Below, piece by piece: positions 8,040-16,757 of a stretch of 49,056 nt of DNA. The position numbers and the translations under genes were made by a program. The DNA lies in NCBI GenBank assembly GCA_949283785.1, contig CASDTR010000038.1, positions 1-49,056 on the forward strand. Direction: 5' to 3'. The notes beneath the pieces are model-generated. The model searched no databases and had not been told where the DNA came from. It saw nothing but the letters and a program-made list of their open reading frames with translations. The stretch's first letter is position 1, and the number at the start of each line of letters is the position of its first letter. Origin of the DNA: an uncultured Oscillospiraceae bacterium (GTDB lineage: Bacteria > Bacillota > Clostridia > Oscillospirales > Acutalibacteraceae).

Positions 8040-8115
8040 CCGGGTGTGGCGCAGTTGGGAGCGCGCTTGACTGGGGGTCAAGAGGCCGTGAGTTCAAGTC
8101 TCGCCACTCGGACCA
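8040..8115 (+). tRNA. tRNA-Pro (anticodon GGG)
   Basis: The 76 bases fold as a full cloverleaf: acceptor CCGGGTG/CACTCGG, D stem GCGC/GCGC, anticodon stem CTTGA/TCAAG around loop CTGGGGG with anticodon GGG, T stem GTGAG/CTCGC around TTCAAGT, discriminator A and an encoded CCA. It reads CCC (and CCU) proline codons. An AT-rich gene follows, as often seen near tRNA integration sites, but no attachment repeat was found. Confidence 0.95.
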
Positions 8116-11369: not shown

Positions 11370-11924
11370 TTATCCCTGCCGTTCTTTTCTTATGATGCCG
11401 TATTCCGCTATATCCAAAAATTCTCCGCTGTTTGATTTGAATTTTTCCCTTTTGATTCCTTCCAACGTCAAACCACATTTTTGAGCCACTTTCCCTGATC
11501 CCGGATTTTTAACGACATGGCGTATTTCAACTCGGTTTACTCCTACCTCGGTGAAAAGATAACCAATAACAGCTTTTGCAGCTTCGGTCATAATGCCTTT
11601 ATTCCAGCAGTCAAAACCGATACAGTATCCAATTTCGGCATCTTCGCTTCTCTCATTTATTTTTACAACACTGATGCCGCCTATGGGTTTACCTTCATAC
11701 TCAATTGCCCAGTTATATGTATTTGATTTTCTGTATCCCATACACCACTTTCTCAAAAGCTTTTTTGTTTCTTTTGGTGATGTATGCGGAAACCATGACA
11801 TAAACCTGGTAACCCTTTCATCATTTGCCCAGTTTTCAAACATGGCCTGAGCGTCCGACACATAAAATCTTCTGAGAATAAGTCTTTCTGTCTTTATGGT
11901 TTGCGTTCCTTTATGGTTAAGCAT
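11370..11924 (-). CDS. GNAT N-acetyltransferase, RimJ/RimL type
   Basis: The 184-residue protein shows the RimL-like start (TIKTERLILRRF) and the acetyl-CoA-binding region around YCIGFDCWNKGIMTEAAKAVIGY, then VEIRHVVKNPGSGKVAQKCG. It transfers an acetyl group from acetyl-CoA to an amine of unknown identity, either a protein N-terminus or a small molecule. It is the third gene of a tight operon (3-base gap) behind a methyltransferase and a second GNAT. The attenuator upstream of the operon suggests an inducible protective role; that is inference. Confidence 0.85.
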   Translation of the reverse strand: MLNHKGTQTIKTERLILRRFYVSDAQAMFENWANDERVTRFMSWFPHTSPKETKKLLRKWCMGYRKSNTYNWAIEYEGKPIGGISVVKINERSEDAEIGYCIGFDCWNKGIMTEAAKAVIGYLFTEVGVNRVEIRHVVKNPGSGKVAQKCGLTLEGIKREKFKSNSGEFLDIAEYGIIRKERQG

Positions 11925-11927
11925 AAT

Positions 11928-12410
11928 TTATTCCTCCAATCTGTATTCCATTCTGATTTCGCGCTCCGTCATGGAGCAGCTCCTGTAAAAGGAAATTGCA
12001 TCTTTATTGAATGCCCAAACGCCGAGATCCACCATTTTACATTTTTGCTCTCGTGCTTCCATTTTGCACCGTTCAAAAAGAAGCGTCCCTATCCCCTGTC
12101 TCTGATATGCTTTCAGCACGCAAATATCATCAATATAGAAACGGTCGAAATCCACATATACGCAGTGGTTTCGGTAAGAGACAACCCAGGCAAAAGCGTA
12201 CCCGACTATATCTCCATTATCTGTTTCGGCAATAAAAACAAAATGCTTCGGGTCGCTGAGTATTTCTTCAAAAGCTTCTCTTGCAAAATAACGCGGTTCA
12301 TTTTTAAAAAGATCGGGTCTGCCGTCATGATGCAGCTGCGCTATTTCCTTCTGAATAGGACGGATATTTTCGCAGTCCGCCGAAACAGCCCTGCGTATAT
12401 TAATATTCAT
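11928..12410 (-). CDS. GNAT N-acetyltransferase
   Basis: The 160-residue protein has the GNAT fold. The acetyl-CoA loop is YQRQGIGTLLFER (about 102-114), preceded by the strand FYIDDICVLKAY; the family's C-terminal segment is GVWAFNKDAISFYRSCS. The substrate is unknown. It lies four bases after the methyltransferase and three bases before the next GNAT, so all three form one operon. Confidence 0.87.
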   Translation of the reverse strand: MNINIRRAVSADCENIRPIQKEIAQLHHDGRPDLFKNEPRYFAREAFEEILSDPKHFVFIAETDNGDIVGYAFAWVVSYRNHCVYVDFDRFYIDDICVLKAYQRQGIGTLLFERCKMEAREQKCKMVDLGVWAFNKDAISFYRSCSMTEREIRMEYRLEE

Positions 12411-12414
12411 ATTT

Positions 12415-13203
12415 TTATTCCTTTCTGAAAATATCTAGGGTATGAAATGAGTACCCAATCAGATCCTTCCTTTCGCATACGGAGAGATGATACTTTAAAT
12501 ACATCTCGTATATTGAACTATCCATTTTATCAACTGTGTCGCACAAAAGCTCTGTCAGACCGTCCGCTGAAACAAAATGAAGCCGTGTCACATTAAAATT
12601 GCTTCTCAGCTCATCTATATCCTCTTTTCGGCAAAGCTCAAATATATCTCCCGGATTTGAATGAGTATCAAAGGTTTCCGTGTTTATCATAGACTTTTCA
12701 ATCAGATTGAAAATTTCACCTTTCACAAATCCGAAATTGATTACGCTGGGATCTACCATACAGTAAGCGACAAAAACAATTCCGCCTTTCTTTGTGACCC
12801 GGATCGCCTCCGACAAGGCTTTCAGCTTATCCTCCTGATTAAACAGATGATACATGGGGCCGAGAAGCAAAGTGATATCATAAGTGTCGTTTTTAAATTC
12901 TGCCAAATCGACAGCGTTGCCCTGTGTGATTGTGACGTCCTCGCCCTTTTTGGTATTTTTGATGAATATTTCAATATTGTGCTCTGTAAGTTCCACGGCG
13001 TCCACGCGATAGCCCTTCCTTGCCAAAGCATGGCTGTATCTGCCTGTGGCAGCTCCGATTTCCAGAATCCGCATATCGGGCTTCAAATATTTCTCTATAT
13101 ATTTCATAGTTGTGATATACTCTACCATCCCGTGCTTTGAAAGTAGCCTATTGTCCTCGTCGTAATTTTCATAATAGTTTTTTACATACTCTTGCGCTTT
13201 CAT
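12415..13203 (-). CDS. Class I SAM-dependent methyltransferase under leader-peptide attenuation
   Basis: The 262-residue protein has a class I Rossmann methyltransferase core. Motif I is MRILEIGAATGRYSHALA (about 44-61), and DAVELT and TYDITLLLGPMYHL are the later SAM-site strands. The substrate is not identifiable: it could be RNA, a protein or a small molecule. A strong RBS (GAGGAGG, 13211-13217) lies close upstream. Ahead of it are a consensus promoter, a short translated leader and an intrinsic terminator, an arrangement known from antibiotic-inducible rRNA methyltransferase and efflux genes. A role in resistance to a ribosome-targeting compound is therefore plausible but not shown. Confidence 0.85.
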   Translation of the reverse strand: MKAQEYVKNYYENYDEDNRLLSKHGMVEYITTMKYIEKYLKPDMRILEIGAATGRYSHALARKGYRVDAVELTEHNIEIFIKNTKKGEDVTITQGNAVDLAEFKNDTYDITLLLGPMYHLFNQEDKLKALSEAIRVTKKGGIVFVAYCMVDPSVINFGFVKGEIFNLIEKSMINTETFDTHSNPGDIFELCRKEDIDELRSNFNVTRLHFVSADGLTELLCDTVDKMDSSIYEMYLKYHLSVCERKDLIGYSFHTLDIFRKE

Positions 13204-13222
13204 TTTAAAACCTCCTCTAAAT

Positions 13223-13260
13223 AAAAAAACAGCGCAGGCTATAAATTATAGCTTGCACTG
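13223..13260 (-). terminator. Attenuator terminator before the methyltransferase gene
   Basis: On the minus strand a stem of about 14 pairs (CAGTGCA...GCTATA against TATAGC...TGCGCTG) is followed by seven T residues, ending only a few bases before the RBS of the methyltransferase gene. Its 3' arm (AGCCTGC) can alternatively pair with GCAGGCT inside the leader (13319-13326), the hallmark of attenuation. Confidence 0.85.
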
Positions 13261-13287
13261 TGTATATCTTATCAATATAAATTTGGT

Positions 13288-13398
13288 CTATTTACACCGA
13301 TAAGGGTACAACAATGTAAGCCTGCTTTTCTGCCAATACACGACAGCTGCAAACTGCATAGGGAACATATAAAATTTATGTCCGAATCGGTTGAGCAT
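13288..13398 (-). CDS. Leader peptide (36 aa) of the methyltransferase operon
   Basis: Too short for most gene finders. On the minus strand an AAGGAGGTG site (13404-13412) lies five bases before an ATG that opens a 36-codon frame ending in TAG. The peptide begins MLNRFGHKFYMFPM and ends with a basic tail. Codons 25-27 contain the GCAGGCT segment that can pair with the 3' arm of the downstream terminator. A ribosome stalled upstream of these codons would leave this segment free and favour read-through, so the peptide's translation, not its product, is probably what matters. The stalling signal (drug or amino acid) is unknown. Confidence 0.75.
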   Translation of the reverse strand: MLNRFGHKFYMFPMQFAAVVYWQKSRLTLLYPYRCK

Positions 13399-13425
13399 TG
13401 TTGCACCTCCTTACTGTTTTGCATC

Positions 13426-13454
13426 ACTATAAACCTAAATATAACGGTTGTCAA
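13426..13454 (-). promoter_or_regulatory. Consensus promoter of the leader-methyltransferase-GNAT-GNAT operon
   Basis: TTGACA (13449-13454) and TATAGT (13426-13431) with a 17-base spacer. A strong promoter ahead of a terminator fits control by attenuation. Confidence 0.85.
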
Positions 13455-13556: not shown

Positions 13557-13763
13557 TTACTCGACGGAAACCACTTCATATCCCGCGTCGGTTACAGCCT
13601 TGGCGAGAGCTTCGTCGCTTACATCCTGCGTGAGAGTTACAAACGCTGTTTTCTTCTCAAGGTCAACCTTCGCGCTTACTCCCTCAAGGTCGTTAAGAGC
13701 CTTTTCCACTCTCGCGCTGCAATGACCGCAGGCCATTCCTTCAATAATCATTTTCTTTTCCAT
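13557..13763 (-). CDS. copZ: Possible internal translation product: CopZ-like copper chaperone
   Basis: Within the copA frame an ATG at 13763 (Met791) is preceded by AAAGGAGG (13774-13781) with a 10-base gap. Initiation there would give a 68-residue protein, the normal size of CopZ, with the Cu(I) site GMACGHC near its N-terminus and a complete beta-alpha-beta-beta-alpha-beta ferredoxin-like length. The sequence is the C-terminal domain of CopA, so this would be a second, soluble product of the same frame. The site is seen directly; its use is inference. A former separate copZ fused by loss of the copA stop codon would explain it. Confidence 0.5.
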   Translation of the reverse strand: MEKKMIIEGMACGHCSARVEKALNDLEGVSAKVDLEKKTAFVTLTQDVSDEALAKAVTDAGYEVVSVE

Positions 13764-16133
13764 TTTTATTTTTCCTCCTTTAAGCTTTATATCTACGGAC
13801 GAAACAGCCGCTTTCGGCTTTTCGCCGCTGATTTTATTGCCGCCCGGCAATATTTTACTGTTTTTAAAGAATTTGAGCCTTAAAGCGTTTGTGACAACGC
13901 ACACTGAGCTTAAACTCATGGCTCCCGCCGCTATCATGGGATTGAGCTTTAATCCGAATACATTATAAAACAATCCTGCCGCTACAGGAATACATACGGC
14001 GTTATAAATCAGCGCCCAGAAAAGGTTTTCCTTGATATTCCTGATGACCGCTTTGCTGAGCTTTACCGCTGCAACAGCTTCATTAAGATCGCCTTTCATA
14101 AGCACGATATCCGCCGACTCTATGGCGATGTCAGTACCCGCTCCGATTGCGATTCCCACATCTGCCGCGGCAAGGGCGGGGGCGTCGTTGATTCCGTCGC
14201 CTATCATGGCGGTGACGCCTTTTTCTTTAAGTGAGCTTACTACCCTTTCCTTATCCTGAGGCAGCACTCCCGCTGAAAACTCAGTGACACCCGCCTGTGA
14301 AGCTATGGCCTTTGCCGTTACTTCATTATCGCCGGTAAGCATCATTGTACTGATGCCCATTGACTTAAACTCCTCAATTGCTGCCGGACTTGTGGGCTTT
14401 ATGGTATCGGATACTGCAATTATACCTATTACCGTATTGTCATCGGCAAAGAAAAGTGGTGTTTTTCCCATTTCGGCAAGGCTCTGCGCTTTGGCTTTTG
14501 AAACTTCCTCAAAAACGCCAAGCTCCTCCATATAAGCTCCGTTGCCGCCGTAAATCCTTCTGCCGTCTACAAGAGCGGAAATTCCACGTCCTGCTTTTTG
14601 GGTATACCCTTCTGCTTCGGGGATTGCAATATTCCTTTCCTTCGCCTCCTCGAGCACTGCACCCGCCAGAGGATGCTCCGAAAGCTTCTCCACTGCGGCG
14701 CAGATTCCGAGAAAGTCATCGGCATCAGCTTGGGGGTTTGAATTGATTATAATATCCGTTACAACAGGTTTACCTTCTGTGATTGTGCCGGTTTTATCGA
14801 GAGCTATATTCTTTATGCTGTGAGCGGTTTCCAAAGCTTCGGCACTCTTAATGAGAATACCCAGCTCCGCACCTTTTCCCGTACCTACCATAATCGCCGT
14901 AGGTGTTGCAAGTCCCAGAGCACAGGGACAGGAAATTACAAGTACCGATATACCAATGGACATTGCAAATTCAAATTCGGCTCCCGAAAGAAGCCATGCT
15001 ATAACCGAAACAATGGCAACAGCAATAACTGCCGGAACGAAAATCCTGCTGACTTTATCGGCAAGCTTCGCAATGGGCGCTTTCGATGACGACGCCTCTT
15101 CCACAAGCTTTATTATCTGCGAAAGTGCTGTATCCTCGCCCACATTTGATGCTTTCATTTTAAAGTATCCACTCTTATTTATAGTGGCTCCTGTGACTTT
15201 ATCTCCGGGCTCCTTATCTGCCGGCATACTCTCGCCTGTTATGGCGGATTCATCCACTGATCCGTTTCCGATGATTATAACTCCGTCGGCGGGGATTGTC
15301 TCTCCCGAACGGACTATGAGTATATCTCCCACAGCTATTTCATCGGCGGAAATTATCTTTTCCTCACCGTCACGCTCAACACATGCTGTTTTCGGCGCAA
15401 GGGAAATAAGCCTTGAAATCGCCTGACTGGTCTTGCCCTTGGCTCTCGCTTCGAGAAGCTTTCCCAGGGAAATAAGAGTCAGAATCATTGCAGCCGATTC
15501 AAAATACAAATCCATTGAATACTGCTCGATTATGCCGTAATCCGAAACGGAAAAGCCGTAGGATATTTTATATATTGCGTAAATCCCGTAAAGGACGGAA
15601 GCGCCCGAACCTATCGCGATAAGTGAATCCATATTGGGCGCCCCTTTAAACAGGGACTTGAATCCGTTTTTAAAGTAATGGAAATTTACAAACACCACAG
15701 GAATACACAAAATGAACTGAGTAAAGGTAAAGGTCATAGCGTTATTGACCGAGTGGAAAAATGACGGCAAAGGAAAACCCATCATATGACCCATGGAAAT
15801 ATAGAAAAGCGGAACGGTAAATATTATGGATATAATAAGCCGCTTTTTCATATCGGAAATATGCTTTTCAACCTCTGAAATTCCCTTTTCGGCAGAAACA
15901 CTTTTGCTCTTTTCGCCGCTGCTCTGAGGAGTGGCTCCGTATCCGCCGCTCTCAACCGCTTTCACAATTTCACCGCTGCCTGTTTTGCTCTCATCATAAG
16001 TTACGGTCATTGAATTAGTAAGGAGATTTACCTCCGCCTTTTCTACTCCCTCAACACCGCACACGCTCTTTTCAACATGAGCGCTGCAAGCTGAACAGGT
16101 CATGCCCGTTACCGTATATTTTTCAGTTTTCAT
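13557..16133 (-). CDS. copA: Copper-translocating P-type ATPase with a C-terminal CopZ-like domain
   Basis: The 858-residue membrane protein is a P1B-type copper pump. Order: N-terminal heavy-metal domain with GMTCSAC (C13, C16), membrane helices from about 100, the A domain with a TGES-like segment (near 299), the ion-site SCPC (401-404), phosphorylation site D446 in DKTGT, the nucleotide-domain SEHP, and GDGINDAP. It exports Cu(I). Unusually, a second metal-binding domain (GMACGHC, C802 and C805) is attached at the C-terminus after a linker of about 35 residues without clear structure. That linker encodes a Shine-Dalgarno site in front of Met791. No CopY or CsoR gene is adjacent. The RBS is an AGGTGAT block identical to that of the next upstream gene. 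Confidence 0.95.
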   Translation of the reverse strand: MKTEKYTVTGMTCSACSAHVEKSVCGVEGVEKAEVNLLTNSMTVTYDESKTGSGEIVKAVESGGYGATPQSSGEKSKSVSAEKGISEVEKHISDMKKRLIISIIFTVPLFYISMGHMMGFPLPSFFHSVNNAMTFTFTQFILCIPVVFVNFHYFKNGFKSLFKGAPNMDSLIAIGSGASVLYGIYAIYKISYGFSVSDYGIIEQYSMDLYFESAAMILTLISLGKLLEARAKGKTSQAISRLISLAPKTACVERDGEEKIISADEIAVGDILIVRSGETIPADGVIIIGNGSVDESAITGESMPADKEPGDKVTGATINKSGYFKMKASNVGEDTALSQIIKLVEEASSSKAPIAKLADKVSRIFVPAVIAVAIVSVIAWLLSGAEFEFAMSIGISVLVISCPCALGLATPTAIMVGTGKGAELGILIKSAEALETAHSIKNIALDKTGTITEGKPVVTDIIINSNPQADADDFLGICAAVEKLSEHPLAGAVLEEAKERNIAIPEAEGYTQKAGRGISALVDGRRIYGGNGAYMEELGVFEEVSKAKAQSLAEMGKTPLFFADDNTVIGIIAVSDTIKPTSPAAIEEFKSMGISTMMLTGDNEVTAKAIASQAGVTEFSAGVLPQDKERVVSSLKEKGVTAMIGDGINDAPALAAADVGIAIGAGTDIAIESADIVLMKGDLNEAVAAVKLSKAVIRNIKENLFWALIYNAVCIPVAAGLFYNVFGLKLNPMIAAGAMSLSSVCVVTNALRLKFFKNSKILPGGNKISGEKPKAAVSSVDIKLKGGKIKMEKKMIIEGMACGHCSARVEKALNDLEGVSAKVDLEKKTAFVTLTQDVSDEALAKAVTDAGYEVVSVE

Positions 16134-16268: not shown

Positions 16269-16757
16269 TTATTTCAATTCTTTTACATACAATCGGTCTG
16301 TTCCGTTTCCGTAATTGGTTATATCCTTTAAATATCGGTATCCGAATTTCTCATATAAACCCACATGTTCCGACGGAATATAGGTTCTTGTAAATCCACA
16401 TTCTTTGGCATATTCATTTGCAAAATCAATAAGCTTTTCGCTGATTCTATTGCCGCGATAATCCTCCGCCACAAAGACACTCGATATCCACGGATATATT
16501 TCGGGCAAGGGATAATAATCCGTCTTCATTATGGTGGCCATTCCCACTACCTGACCGTTTATTTCCGCCGCAAAGGGAGCTTCCCAATCGGTAAACTCCC
16601 ATGTTCGCAGTATTCGGAGCATATGTTCCTTTACTTCTTCCCATGAAAAATTTTCCACAAAATAAATCAGTCTGTCCGCCAAGTCCGTGTTTTTATCTAC
16701 CTTTTTAATCTCCAACTCATCCATGCTTAAATTCTTACAGGTCATTCCTGTTTCCAT
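16269..16757 (-). CDS. GNAT N-acetyltransferase with a copA-like 5' end
   Basis: The 162-residue protein is a GNAT acetyltransferase: EINGQVVGMATIM (about 75-88), then ISSVFVAEDYRGNRISEKLIDFA with the acetyl-CoA loop, and HVGLYEKFGYRYL near the C-terminus. The substrate is unknown. The first seven codons (METGMTC) and 19 bases around the start match the start of copA almost exactly, including the TGMTC metal-binding motif, which makes no sense in a GNAT. The original start was perhaps Met12. It lies between the GH16 gene and copA on the same strand. Confidence 0.82.
   Translation of the reverse strand: METGMTCKNLSMDELEIKKVDKNTDLADRLIYFVENFSWEEVKEHMLRILRTWEFTDWEAPFAAEINGQVVGMATIMKTDYYPLPEIYPWISSVFVAEDYRGNRISEKLIDFANEYAKECGFTRTYIPSEHVGLYEKFGYRYLKDITNYGNGTDRLYVKELK

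Follow-up and report, generated by a model that had tools for sequence, protein, structure and literature searches.

Described attenuators and the present locus

A review (PMC5418344) lists attenuators for ermK, mef/mel, tetM and vmlR as well as one of the same kind for an ABC-transporter gene of Listeria, and the accessible part of that text states that at ermK and similar genes a drug-stalled ribosome in the leader open reading frame (ORF) favors the antiterminator. The hflXr / rli80 element of Listeria combines a short ORF with alternative terminator and antiterminator structures, and is induced by lincomycin and erythromycin (accessible part of PMC6310831). In the current study a related arrangement was analyzed on a 49,056-nucleotide stretch of contig CASDTR010000038.1 (hereafter the window), from an uncultured Oscillospiraceae bacterium. 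An initial annotation had proposed a ribosome-mediated attenuator ahead of an operon of one methyltransferase and two GNAT acetyltransferases, and this proposal was borne out by a four-part RNA with a conserved leader and a conserved alternative pairing. The comparisons presented here support well a putative conserved ribosome-mediated attenuator, which is probably switched ON by early ribosome stalling within the leader and probably controls a dispersed, stress-inducible detoxification regulon that includes the window operon.

The Listeria ABC-transporter gene mentioned above is presumably lmo0919. The attenuators of ermK, mef/mel, vmlR and lmo0919 are described gene by gene in the accessible text, whereas here one sequence-conserved element stands ahead of many unrelated modifying enzymes. 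Leader homology to these four was compared through Rfam scans only. A scan of the whole window at the gathering score returned a tRNA at 8040-8112 as its single match, leaving the attenuator unmatched, and in scans of five element loci (L001, which is the window, L040, L171, L048 and L009) no match covered the element even with a limit of E 1. Attenuators of the tet(M)/tet(W) type, which precede ribosomal protection genes, are alike in having a leader ORF and a T-tailed terminator ahead of a resistance gene, but their leader (ATGCGGCAAGGTATTCTTAAATAA) is unlike that of the window. The hflXr / rli80 leader, as far as its description is accessible, has 14 codons and an RLR motif, whereas the window leader contains SRLTLL and no RLR. 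Text searches of the literature, at the level of titles and abstract openings, returned no description of the present element.

Architecture of the locus

The features of the locus are as follows.

11370-13454, minus strand: methyltransferase-GNAT-GNAT operon with its putative attenuator
13426..13454, minus strand: sigma-70-type promoter, with TTGACA at 13454-13449, a 17-base spacer and TATAGT at 13431-13426
13288..13398, minus strand: leader ORF, MLNRFGHKFYMFPMQFAAVVYWQKSRLTLLYPYRCK, 36 codons with an in-frame tryptophan (Trp) as codon 22; similar leaders occur in relatives
13396..13407, minus strand: segment 1, GGTGCAACAATG, covering the last part of the leader Shine-Dalgarno (SD) sequence and the start codon; forms a helix with segment 2 in the minimum-energy fold
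13304..13322, minus strand: segment 2, GGCTTACATTGTTGTACCC, leader codons 26-32; partner of segment 1 or segment 3
13248..13261, minus strand: segment 3, ACAGTGCAAGCTAT, terminator 5' arm, from fold and pair counts
13229..13242, minus strand: segment 4, ATAGCCTGCGCTGT, terminator 3' arm, from fold and pair counts
13223..13229, minus strand: T-tract of the intrinsic terminator, whose hairpin was recovered in one scan and is absent from the consensus-scan listing
13221..13347, minus strand: match to two covariance models, from segment 2 to the T-tract (R1, 105.8 bits; R2, 105 bits, E 2.4e-19; the window element is in the training sets of both)
12415..13203, minus strand: class I S-adenosylmethionine-dependent methyltransferase, 262 amino acids, family MT1 (Methyltransf_25, 53.8 bits)
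11928..12410, minus strand: second gene, GNAT acetyltransferase, 160 amino acids (Acetyltransf_1, 66.6 bits)
11370..11924, minus strand: third gene, GNAT acetyltransferase, RimJ/RimL-like, 184 amino acids (Acetyltransf_3, 121.6 bits)

The promoter had been called a perfect -35/-10 pair. This is true of the -35 box, but the -10 box matches at five of six positions, and the pair is therefore not perfect. Other parts of the initial reading held: the 36-codon leader has a strong initiation signal (GGAGG upstream), the T-tailed terminator (stem 13261-13229, T-tract end 13223) is followed 6 bases further on by the GAGGAGG of the methyltransferase, and the gaps within the operon are 4 and 3 bases.

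Conservation of the alternative pairings

At the level of sequence, the segments and their predicted pairings are conserved and covary, and lie between the promoter and the first gene. The 200-nucleotide (nt) leader region of the window folds at -67.8 kcal/mol, compared to a mean of -42.0 for 200 dinucleotide shuffles, none of which was as low (z -6.2). In the minimum-energy fold, segment 1 is paired to the part of segment 2 that lies in codons 28-32 (CATTGTTGTACC), and the terminator helix of segments 3 and 4 (3:4) also forms. With segment 4 removed, segments 2 and 3 form a long helix (2:3) and the piece folds at -26.9 kcal/mol. A single leader segment thus has two partners, as in classical attenuators. 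The pairing of segments 1 and 2 (1:2), by which the leader SD sequence and start codon are sequestered, was a feature absent from the initial annotation.

For counting pairs in relatives, 583 relatives of the methyltransferase in a named collection were reduced to the best 80. A segment 2 near the hand-made motif GGGCTTGCATTGTCGTACCC (score at least 19) was found in 30 of these 80, and also in the window (L001) and L004; L042, which has no leader crossing segment 2, was dropped from the 32, giving 31 aligned elements (set A). The fraction of cells paired was 84.7% for the 1:2 helix (best slid version 52.2%), 91.0% for 2:3 (43.6%) and 89.8% for 3:4 (43.4%). Cells changed on both sides numbered 16, 20 and 73 in the same order, compared to shuffle means of 7.8, 9.4 and 28.8, each above 500 out of 500 shuffles; the number of double-changed pairs in 2:3 was reached by 21 of 500. 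An intrinsic terminator is thus present ahead of the first gene in the window and its helix covaries in the 31 sequences, most strongly of the three helices, while a mutually exclusive antiterminator built from leader codons is present as the 2:3 helix.

Start codons in set A were chosen partly by duplex energy, so that the 1:2 evidence from that set is partly circular. An independent check used the 56 model matches described below, since the covariance models do not extend to segment 1. In 47 of the 56, an ORF with an SD sequence ahead of it runs across segment 2 and allows a 1:2 duplex at -9 kcal/mol or lower, against 1.6% of shuffles. A promoter match of at least 9/12 within 61 bases upstream of the leader SD sequence was present for all 31 set-A leaders, against 15.8% of shuffles.

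It had also been suggested that GCAGGCT pairs with the 3' arm of the terminator. This motif does lie in codons 25-27, and the window could form such a pairing, but what relatives support is an alternative pairing with the 5' arm; with the 3' arm, 74.7% of cells were paired and nothing rose above shuffles. Conservation in relatives, on which the initial annotation had staked its proposal beforehand, was found both for the leader and for an alternative pairing.

Leader peptides

Of 200 genomes of the family, 21 carry an MT1 methyltransferase at E 1e-40 or better, the genome of the window among them. By eye, a similar leader lies upstream in 10 of 24 loci, including the window and a second copy of the element in the same genome (L002, G000:C15:2171-2292), which precedes a methyltransferase paralogue 47% identical to that of the window. 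A leader profile built from these 10 detected leaders in 9 of 200 family genomes, at the same loci only, and in 394 genomes of the order it added two weak matches (E 0.003 and 0.01). Compared with plasmids the leader peptide gave no match, and compared with phages it gave two matches at E 1, which are uninformative.

All 31 set-A elements have a predicted SD-preceded leader ORF, and all 31 encoded peptides contain Trp, by eye shortly ahead of segment 2 in each. The reading frame of segment 2 differs between 22 leaders and the other 9, and Trp is kept in frame despite this change; conservation at the RNA level alone would not be expected to hold it there. In the model-found set, Trp was present in 19/20 MT1 leaders and in 9/31 others (Fisher 2.3e-6, ignoring relatedness, and with several non-MT1 leader starts uncertain). 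This tally excludes L222 and the four places whose first gene has no assignment (L172, L194, L202 and L230), and it counts L188 with MT1 on account of the broken MT1 copy that stands first there. The longest run of a single residue was at most 3 in 50 of the 51 leaders (2 in the window) and 5 in L226, and codon runs of the trp/his-operon attenuator type were not found among the 51.

Folding with a ribosome footprint

For the 31 set-A elements the nascent transcript, ending at the terminator loop, was folded with a ribosome footprint of 30 nt, and the antiterminator was counted when it exceeded 0.5. This was the case in 30/31 with the ribosome at the start codon, 31/31 at codon 5, 21/31 at codon 10 and 19/31 at Trp; with the ribosome over segment 2 it was the case in 0/31, a result nearly built into the calculation. 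For the window element the values were 0.10 without a ribosome, 0.65 at the start codon, 0.80 at codon 5, 0.50 at Trp and 0.04 at the stop codon. These folds support a model in which early stalling would turn the operon ON and normal passage would turn it OFF; the predicted OFF state without a ribosome is clear in the window and mixed across the set.

Spread of the element

Model R1 was trained on 32 sequences and covers segment 2 to the terminator only. In sense it matched 37 of the 80 loci from the named collection at E 1.1e-4 or better, of which 30 were training loci and 7 were new, 5 of the latter with a diverged RLIPLY-type leader. The element is also carried by a cultured strain, Negativibacillus massiliensis Marseille-P3213T (locus L041). 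The palindromic terminator also yields antisense matches, two of them at the same E-value or better. R1 matched 20 of 391 genomes of the class at E 0.01 or better, with five strong places (G247, the window, two in G212, and G636 from another family of the class), and 16 of 200 genomes of the family at E 0.001 or better. Model R2 was built from 56 sequences, including ten or so that were non-MT1 or newly found (ten elements had been found elsewhere by R1). In 325 genomes of the order, a group of mostly gut bacteria, R2 matched 54 places in 43 genomes at E 1e-4 or better, up to 3 per genome. A specificity check on 134 genomes of the phylum returned three: the genome of the window, a second from its order and, at E 3.6e-4, an outsider. 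E-values of these covariance models are only rough.

Some weaker matches were set aside. Among the weak R1 matches in the class (E 3.3e-5 to 0.01; L150-L165 and others), L150-L155 and L168 are by eye ordinary terminators without a leader, and L183 (E 6.7e-4) and L184 (E 9.3e-4) from the family search have the same look of ordinary terminators; L150, at E 3.3e-5, is likely a false positive.

The tet(W)-type leaders in L126, L127, L129 and L130 contain GGGCTT(A/G)G...TGTACCC, which by eye resembles segment 2. R2 scores at the tet-type loci were below threshold (L129, 25.3 bits, E 0.005; L126, 23.1 bits, E 0.015; L127 and L128, 18.4 bits, E 0.14; L130, no match at E up to 1). Since these are no better than the score of the window terminator read antisense (25.0 bits), kinship is unsupported.

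The methyltransferase was matched in 25 plasmid records, one of which, from Subdoligranulum, is a near-full-length close match; no such leader was seen upstream in that record, and R2 gave no match there up to E 1. Seven relatives were found in viral contigs, and for L119-L121 among them R2 likewise gave no match up to E 1.

Genes behind the element

First genes were examined at 56 places, comprising 52 from the R2 search of the order outside the genome of the window, plus L149 from the R1 search of the class and L172, L176 and L177 from that of the family. The window, its paralogue, the known MT1 loci (L004, L008-L011, L013, L014), L150 and weaker matches are not among them. Genes were assigned from their clusters, from similarity to the proteins of the window and, for 20 of them or their relatives, from Pfam scans, which succeeded in all at 52 of the 56 places (L172, L194, L202 and L230 had no assignment):

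20/56: MT1 methyltransferase, of which 19 are intact, sharing 50-74% identity with the window protein across 261 residues or more, and 1 is broken (L188)
5/56: second methyltransferase family
4/56: other methyltransferases
5/56: GNAT-methyltransferase fusions
9/56: GNATs
4/56: phosphorylase superfamily (nucleoside phosphorylases)
2/56: kinase-like proteins, named by eye, without a Pfam match (L192, L205)
1/56: S66 peptidase
1/56: ANT(6)-type adenylyltransferase (348 bits to PF04439; 248.9 bits to NCBIfam ANT_6, whose cut-off is 420)
1/56: methionyl-tRNA synthetase-like (MetRS-like) protein (L226)

Because R1 was trained on MT1 leaders only, the share of MT1 is biased upward. The first gene starts 99-251 bases past the element in L197, L203, L208, L213, L222 and L223. 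No leader was recognized in L230, which may be false, or in L222, yet the GNAT of L222 is 68% identical to the third window gene. At L172 an element copy, perhaps a remnant, has no recognizable gene downstream.

All three gene families of the window recur behind the element. In L220 a GNAT pair follows it without a methyltransferase, the proteins being 56% and 60% identical to those of the second and third window genes. The L219 fusion has an N-terminal part 45% identical to the third window gene product and a remainder 37% identical to the window methyltransferase, so that both activities are physically joined elsewhere. The fusions in L206, L207, L210, L219 and L224 each appear to combine a RimL-like GNAT and an MT1-like methyltransferase in one polypeptide (Pfam scan in L219 only). 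At L188 the broken MT1 copy is followed by an intact GNAT 71% identical to the second gene of the window.

Microcin C immunity enzymes include MccF, an L,D-carboxypeptidase, MccG, a peptidase of family S51, and MccE2, a GNAT, and processed microcin C inhibits aspartyl-tRNA synthetase (AspRS), according to the accessible part of PMC9239234. LD-carboxypeptidase (S66), S51 peptidase and GNAT genes are also found behind the element, a match at family level only, and the window operon itself is without these peptidases. MccF belongs to the S66 peptidases. In L171 the first gene encodes an S66 peptidase; in L226 such a gene comes second, after the MetRS-like gene, and in L198 the second gene encodes an S51 peptidase.

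The MetRS-like protein (L226:875-2803, minus strand) is divergent, with 204 bits to tRNA-synt_1g and scores under the NCBIfam cut-offs listed; the S66 peptidase gene is next to it, and the element of this locus is a variant with a Gln-rich leader. In L173 a class II aminoacyl-tRNA synthetase of the D/K/N type (L173:2-766, minus strand) starts about 160 bases past an element-controlled GNAT. A recurrent element-linked protein with a P-loop-like start (II.GPHAVGKMTVGQEL) occurs in L192, L205, L171 and L213; Pfam scans of those in L192, L205 and the L171 fragment gave no match.

Enzymes of the window operon

The methyltransferase belongs to Pfam Methyltransf_25/11, and its AlphaFold2 model has a mean confidence score (pLDDT) of 92.3. 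For the three window proteins no NCBIfam model reached its cut-off among the matches listed (25 of 44 for the methyltransferase). The methyltransferase was not of the Erm type (NF000499, 22.5 bits against a cut-off of 212), and for the two GNATs all aminoglycoside-type (AAC) and streptothricin acetyltransferase models among the matches listed were far under their cut-offs. For the GNATs, the best NCBIfam matches included models of the RimI/RimJ/RimL type, each under its cut-off. Compared to the PDB, the methyltransferase model showed a generic class I fold that was not decisive, with the tRNA enzyme CmoM among the best matches. MccD at ranks 6 and 8 was not counted, as the fold is too common.

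Proposed mechanism and alternatives

In the mechanism preferred here, a transcript without a ribosome would pair segment 1 with segment 2, terminator 3:4 would form, and the operon would be OFF. During normal translation the ribosome would enter segment 2 and block its pairing, and 3:4 would again form. A ribosome stalled or slowed early in the leader would cover segment 1 and leave segment 2 free to pair with segment 3, the terminator would fail, and the methyltransferase and both GNATs would be transcribed. From gene content we infer that translation inhibitors are the signal and that the enzymes detoxify them: small molecules that impair translation, either ribosome drugs or inhibitors of tRNA charging, would induce the operon, and its products would inactivate such molecules or protect their target. 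Since the same element lies ahead of many similar genes in the order, the window operon would be one module of a dispersed detoxification regulon. The single resistance operon of the initial annotation was too narrow in this respect, as the operon is one of a widespread set, although the resistance-like setting stands (ANT(6)-type enzyme and S66 peptidase behind the element). As inducer, a block in tRNA charging fits about as well as a ribosome-targeting drug.

Several results weigh against attenuation by early stalling as set out above. In set A, the double-changed pairs of the 1:2 helix were reached by 193 of 500 shuffles and its pair types by 75, and the pair types of 2:3 were reached by 239 of 500. 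Nine of the 56 places failed the independent 1:2 check (L177, L204, L208, L214, L221, L222, L226, L228 and L230). In the footprint folds, a ribosome at the stop codon left the antiterminator above 0.5 in 13/31, and without a ribosome it was favored in 19/31, so that OFF is not clear throughout the set; for the window element the value at codon 10 was 0.11, and the dependence on stall position is not smooth. The leader peptides vary widely, and thus no single drug-specific arrest peptide is evident. An RNA substrate is possible for the methyltransferase, given CmoM among its best folds.

The element might instead be an amino-acid or tRNA-charging attenuator, at which the ribosome stalls at a given codon (Trp in the methyltransferase operon) on uncharged tRNA, e.g. 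under a synthetase inhibitor; this is possible but on balance doubtful. The presence of Trp in 31/31 set-A leaders, though segment 2 is read in two frames, and in 19/20 MT1 compared to 9/31 other model-found leaders is in line with it, as are the MetRS-like gene (L226), the S66 (L171, L226) and S51 (L198) peptidases and the RimL-like GNATs behind the element, the class II synthetase in L173, and the inactivation of microcin C, an AspRS inhibitor, by MccF, MccG and MccE2 (accessible part of PMC9239234). However, there are no codon runs of the trp/his type, most non-MT1 leaders lack Trp, only one of the 52 assigned first genes is a synthetase (L226), and a footprint at Trp brought the antiterminator above 0.5 in 19/31 only; the Fisher test ignores relatedness and several non-MT1 leader starts are uncertain. 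The attenuator might also be real and yet govern a housekeeping set rather than a resistance operon, tuned through the rate of translation and modifying, e.g., tRNA, metabolites or proteins of the ribosome; this is distinctly unlikely. CmoM among the fold neighbors of the methyltransferase and the sub-cut-off RimI/RimJ/RimL-type matches of the GNATs (such enzymes act on ribosomal proteins) would suit it, but not the patchy spread (MT1 in 21/200 genomes of the family, the element in 43/325 of the order), the interchangeable first genes, or the ANT(6)-type enzyme and S66 peptidase that the element also precedes.

Two other explanations are far less probable. In the first, the promoter, small ORF and terminator would be ordinary and would regulate nothing, with partial read-through setting a low level of expression; nothing specific speaks for this, and it is hard to reconcile with two mutually exclusive pairings conserved with covariation, conserved sequestration of the start codon, and a layout repeated ahead of unrelated genes. 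It is equally improbable that the leader peptide is a functional small protein and the RNA pairing secondary: Trp is kept in the leader frame despite the two frames across segment 2, but the peptides diverge strongly between gene classes and their C-terminal third is read in two frames.

An extension of the preferred reading, attenuation by early stalling ahead of detoxification genes, is speculative and unlikely to hold in full. The codons just ahead of segment 2 encode Trp in MT1 leaders, Asp-Asp in 3 of the 4 nucleoside phosphorylase leaders (one genus), and an Arg-Trp-rich stretch at the ANT(6)-type gene. The attenuator may be a modular sensing chassis, re-used before dozens of detoxification genes in Clostridia with the codons ahead of segment 2 swapped for each inducer. 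It would provide an inducible defense against natural inhibitors of translation or tRNA charging, including microcin C-like nucleotide peptides, and the unassigned methyltransferases, GNATs and kinase-like proteins would be unrecognized resistance enzymes.

One conserved element ahead of many modifying enzymes would define a translation-stress regulon, and would serve as a tag for finding unrecognized genes of the resistance type. In contrast, the accessible texts describe attenuators of this mechanism one resistance gene at a time (PMC5418344, PMC6310831).

Other observations

A T-box leader match of 75.6 bits, under the gathering score of 93, was found at L048:3854-4125 (minus strand). In the window, with no element match nearby, a further GNAT gene lies at 16269-16757 (minus strand), beyond a long gene at 13557-16133.

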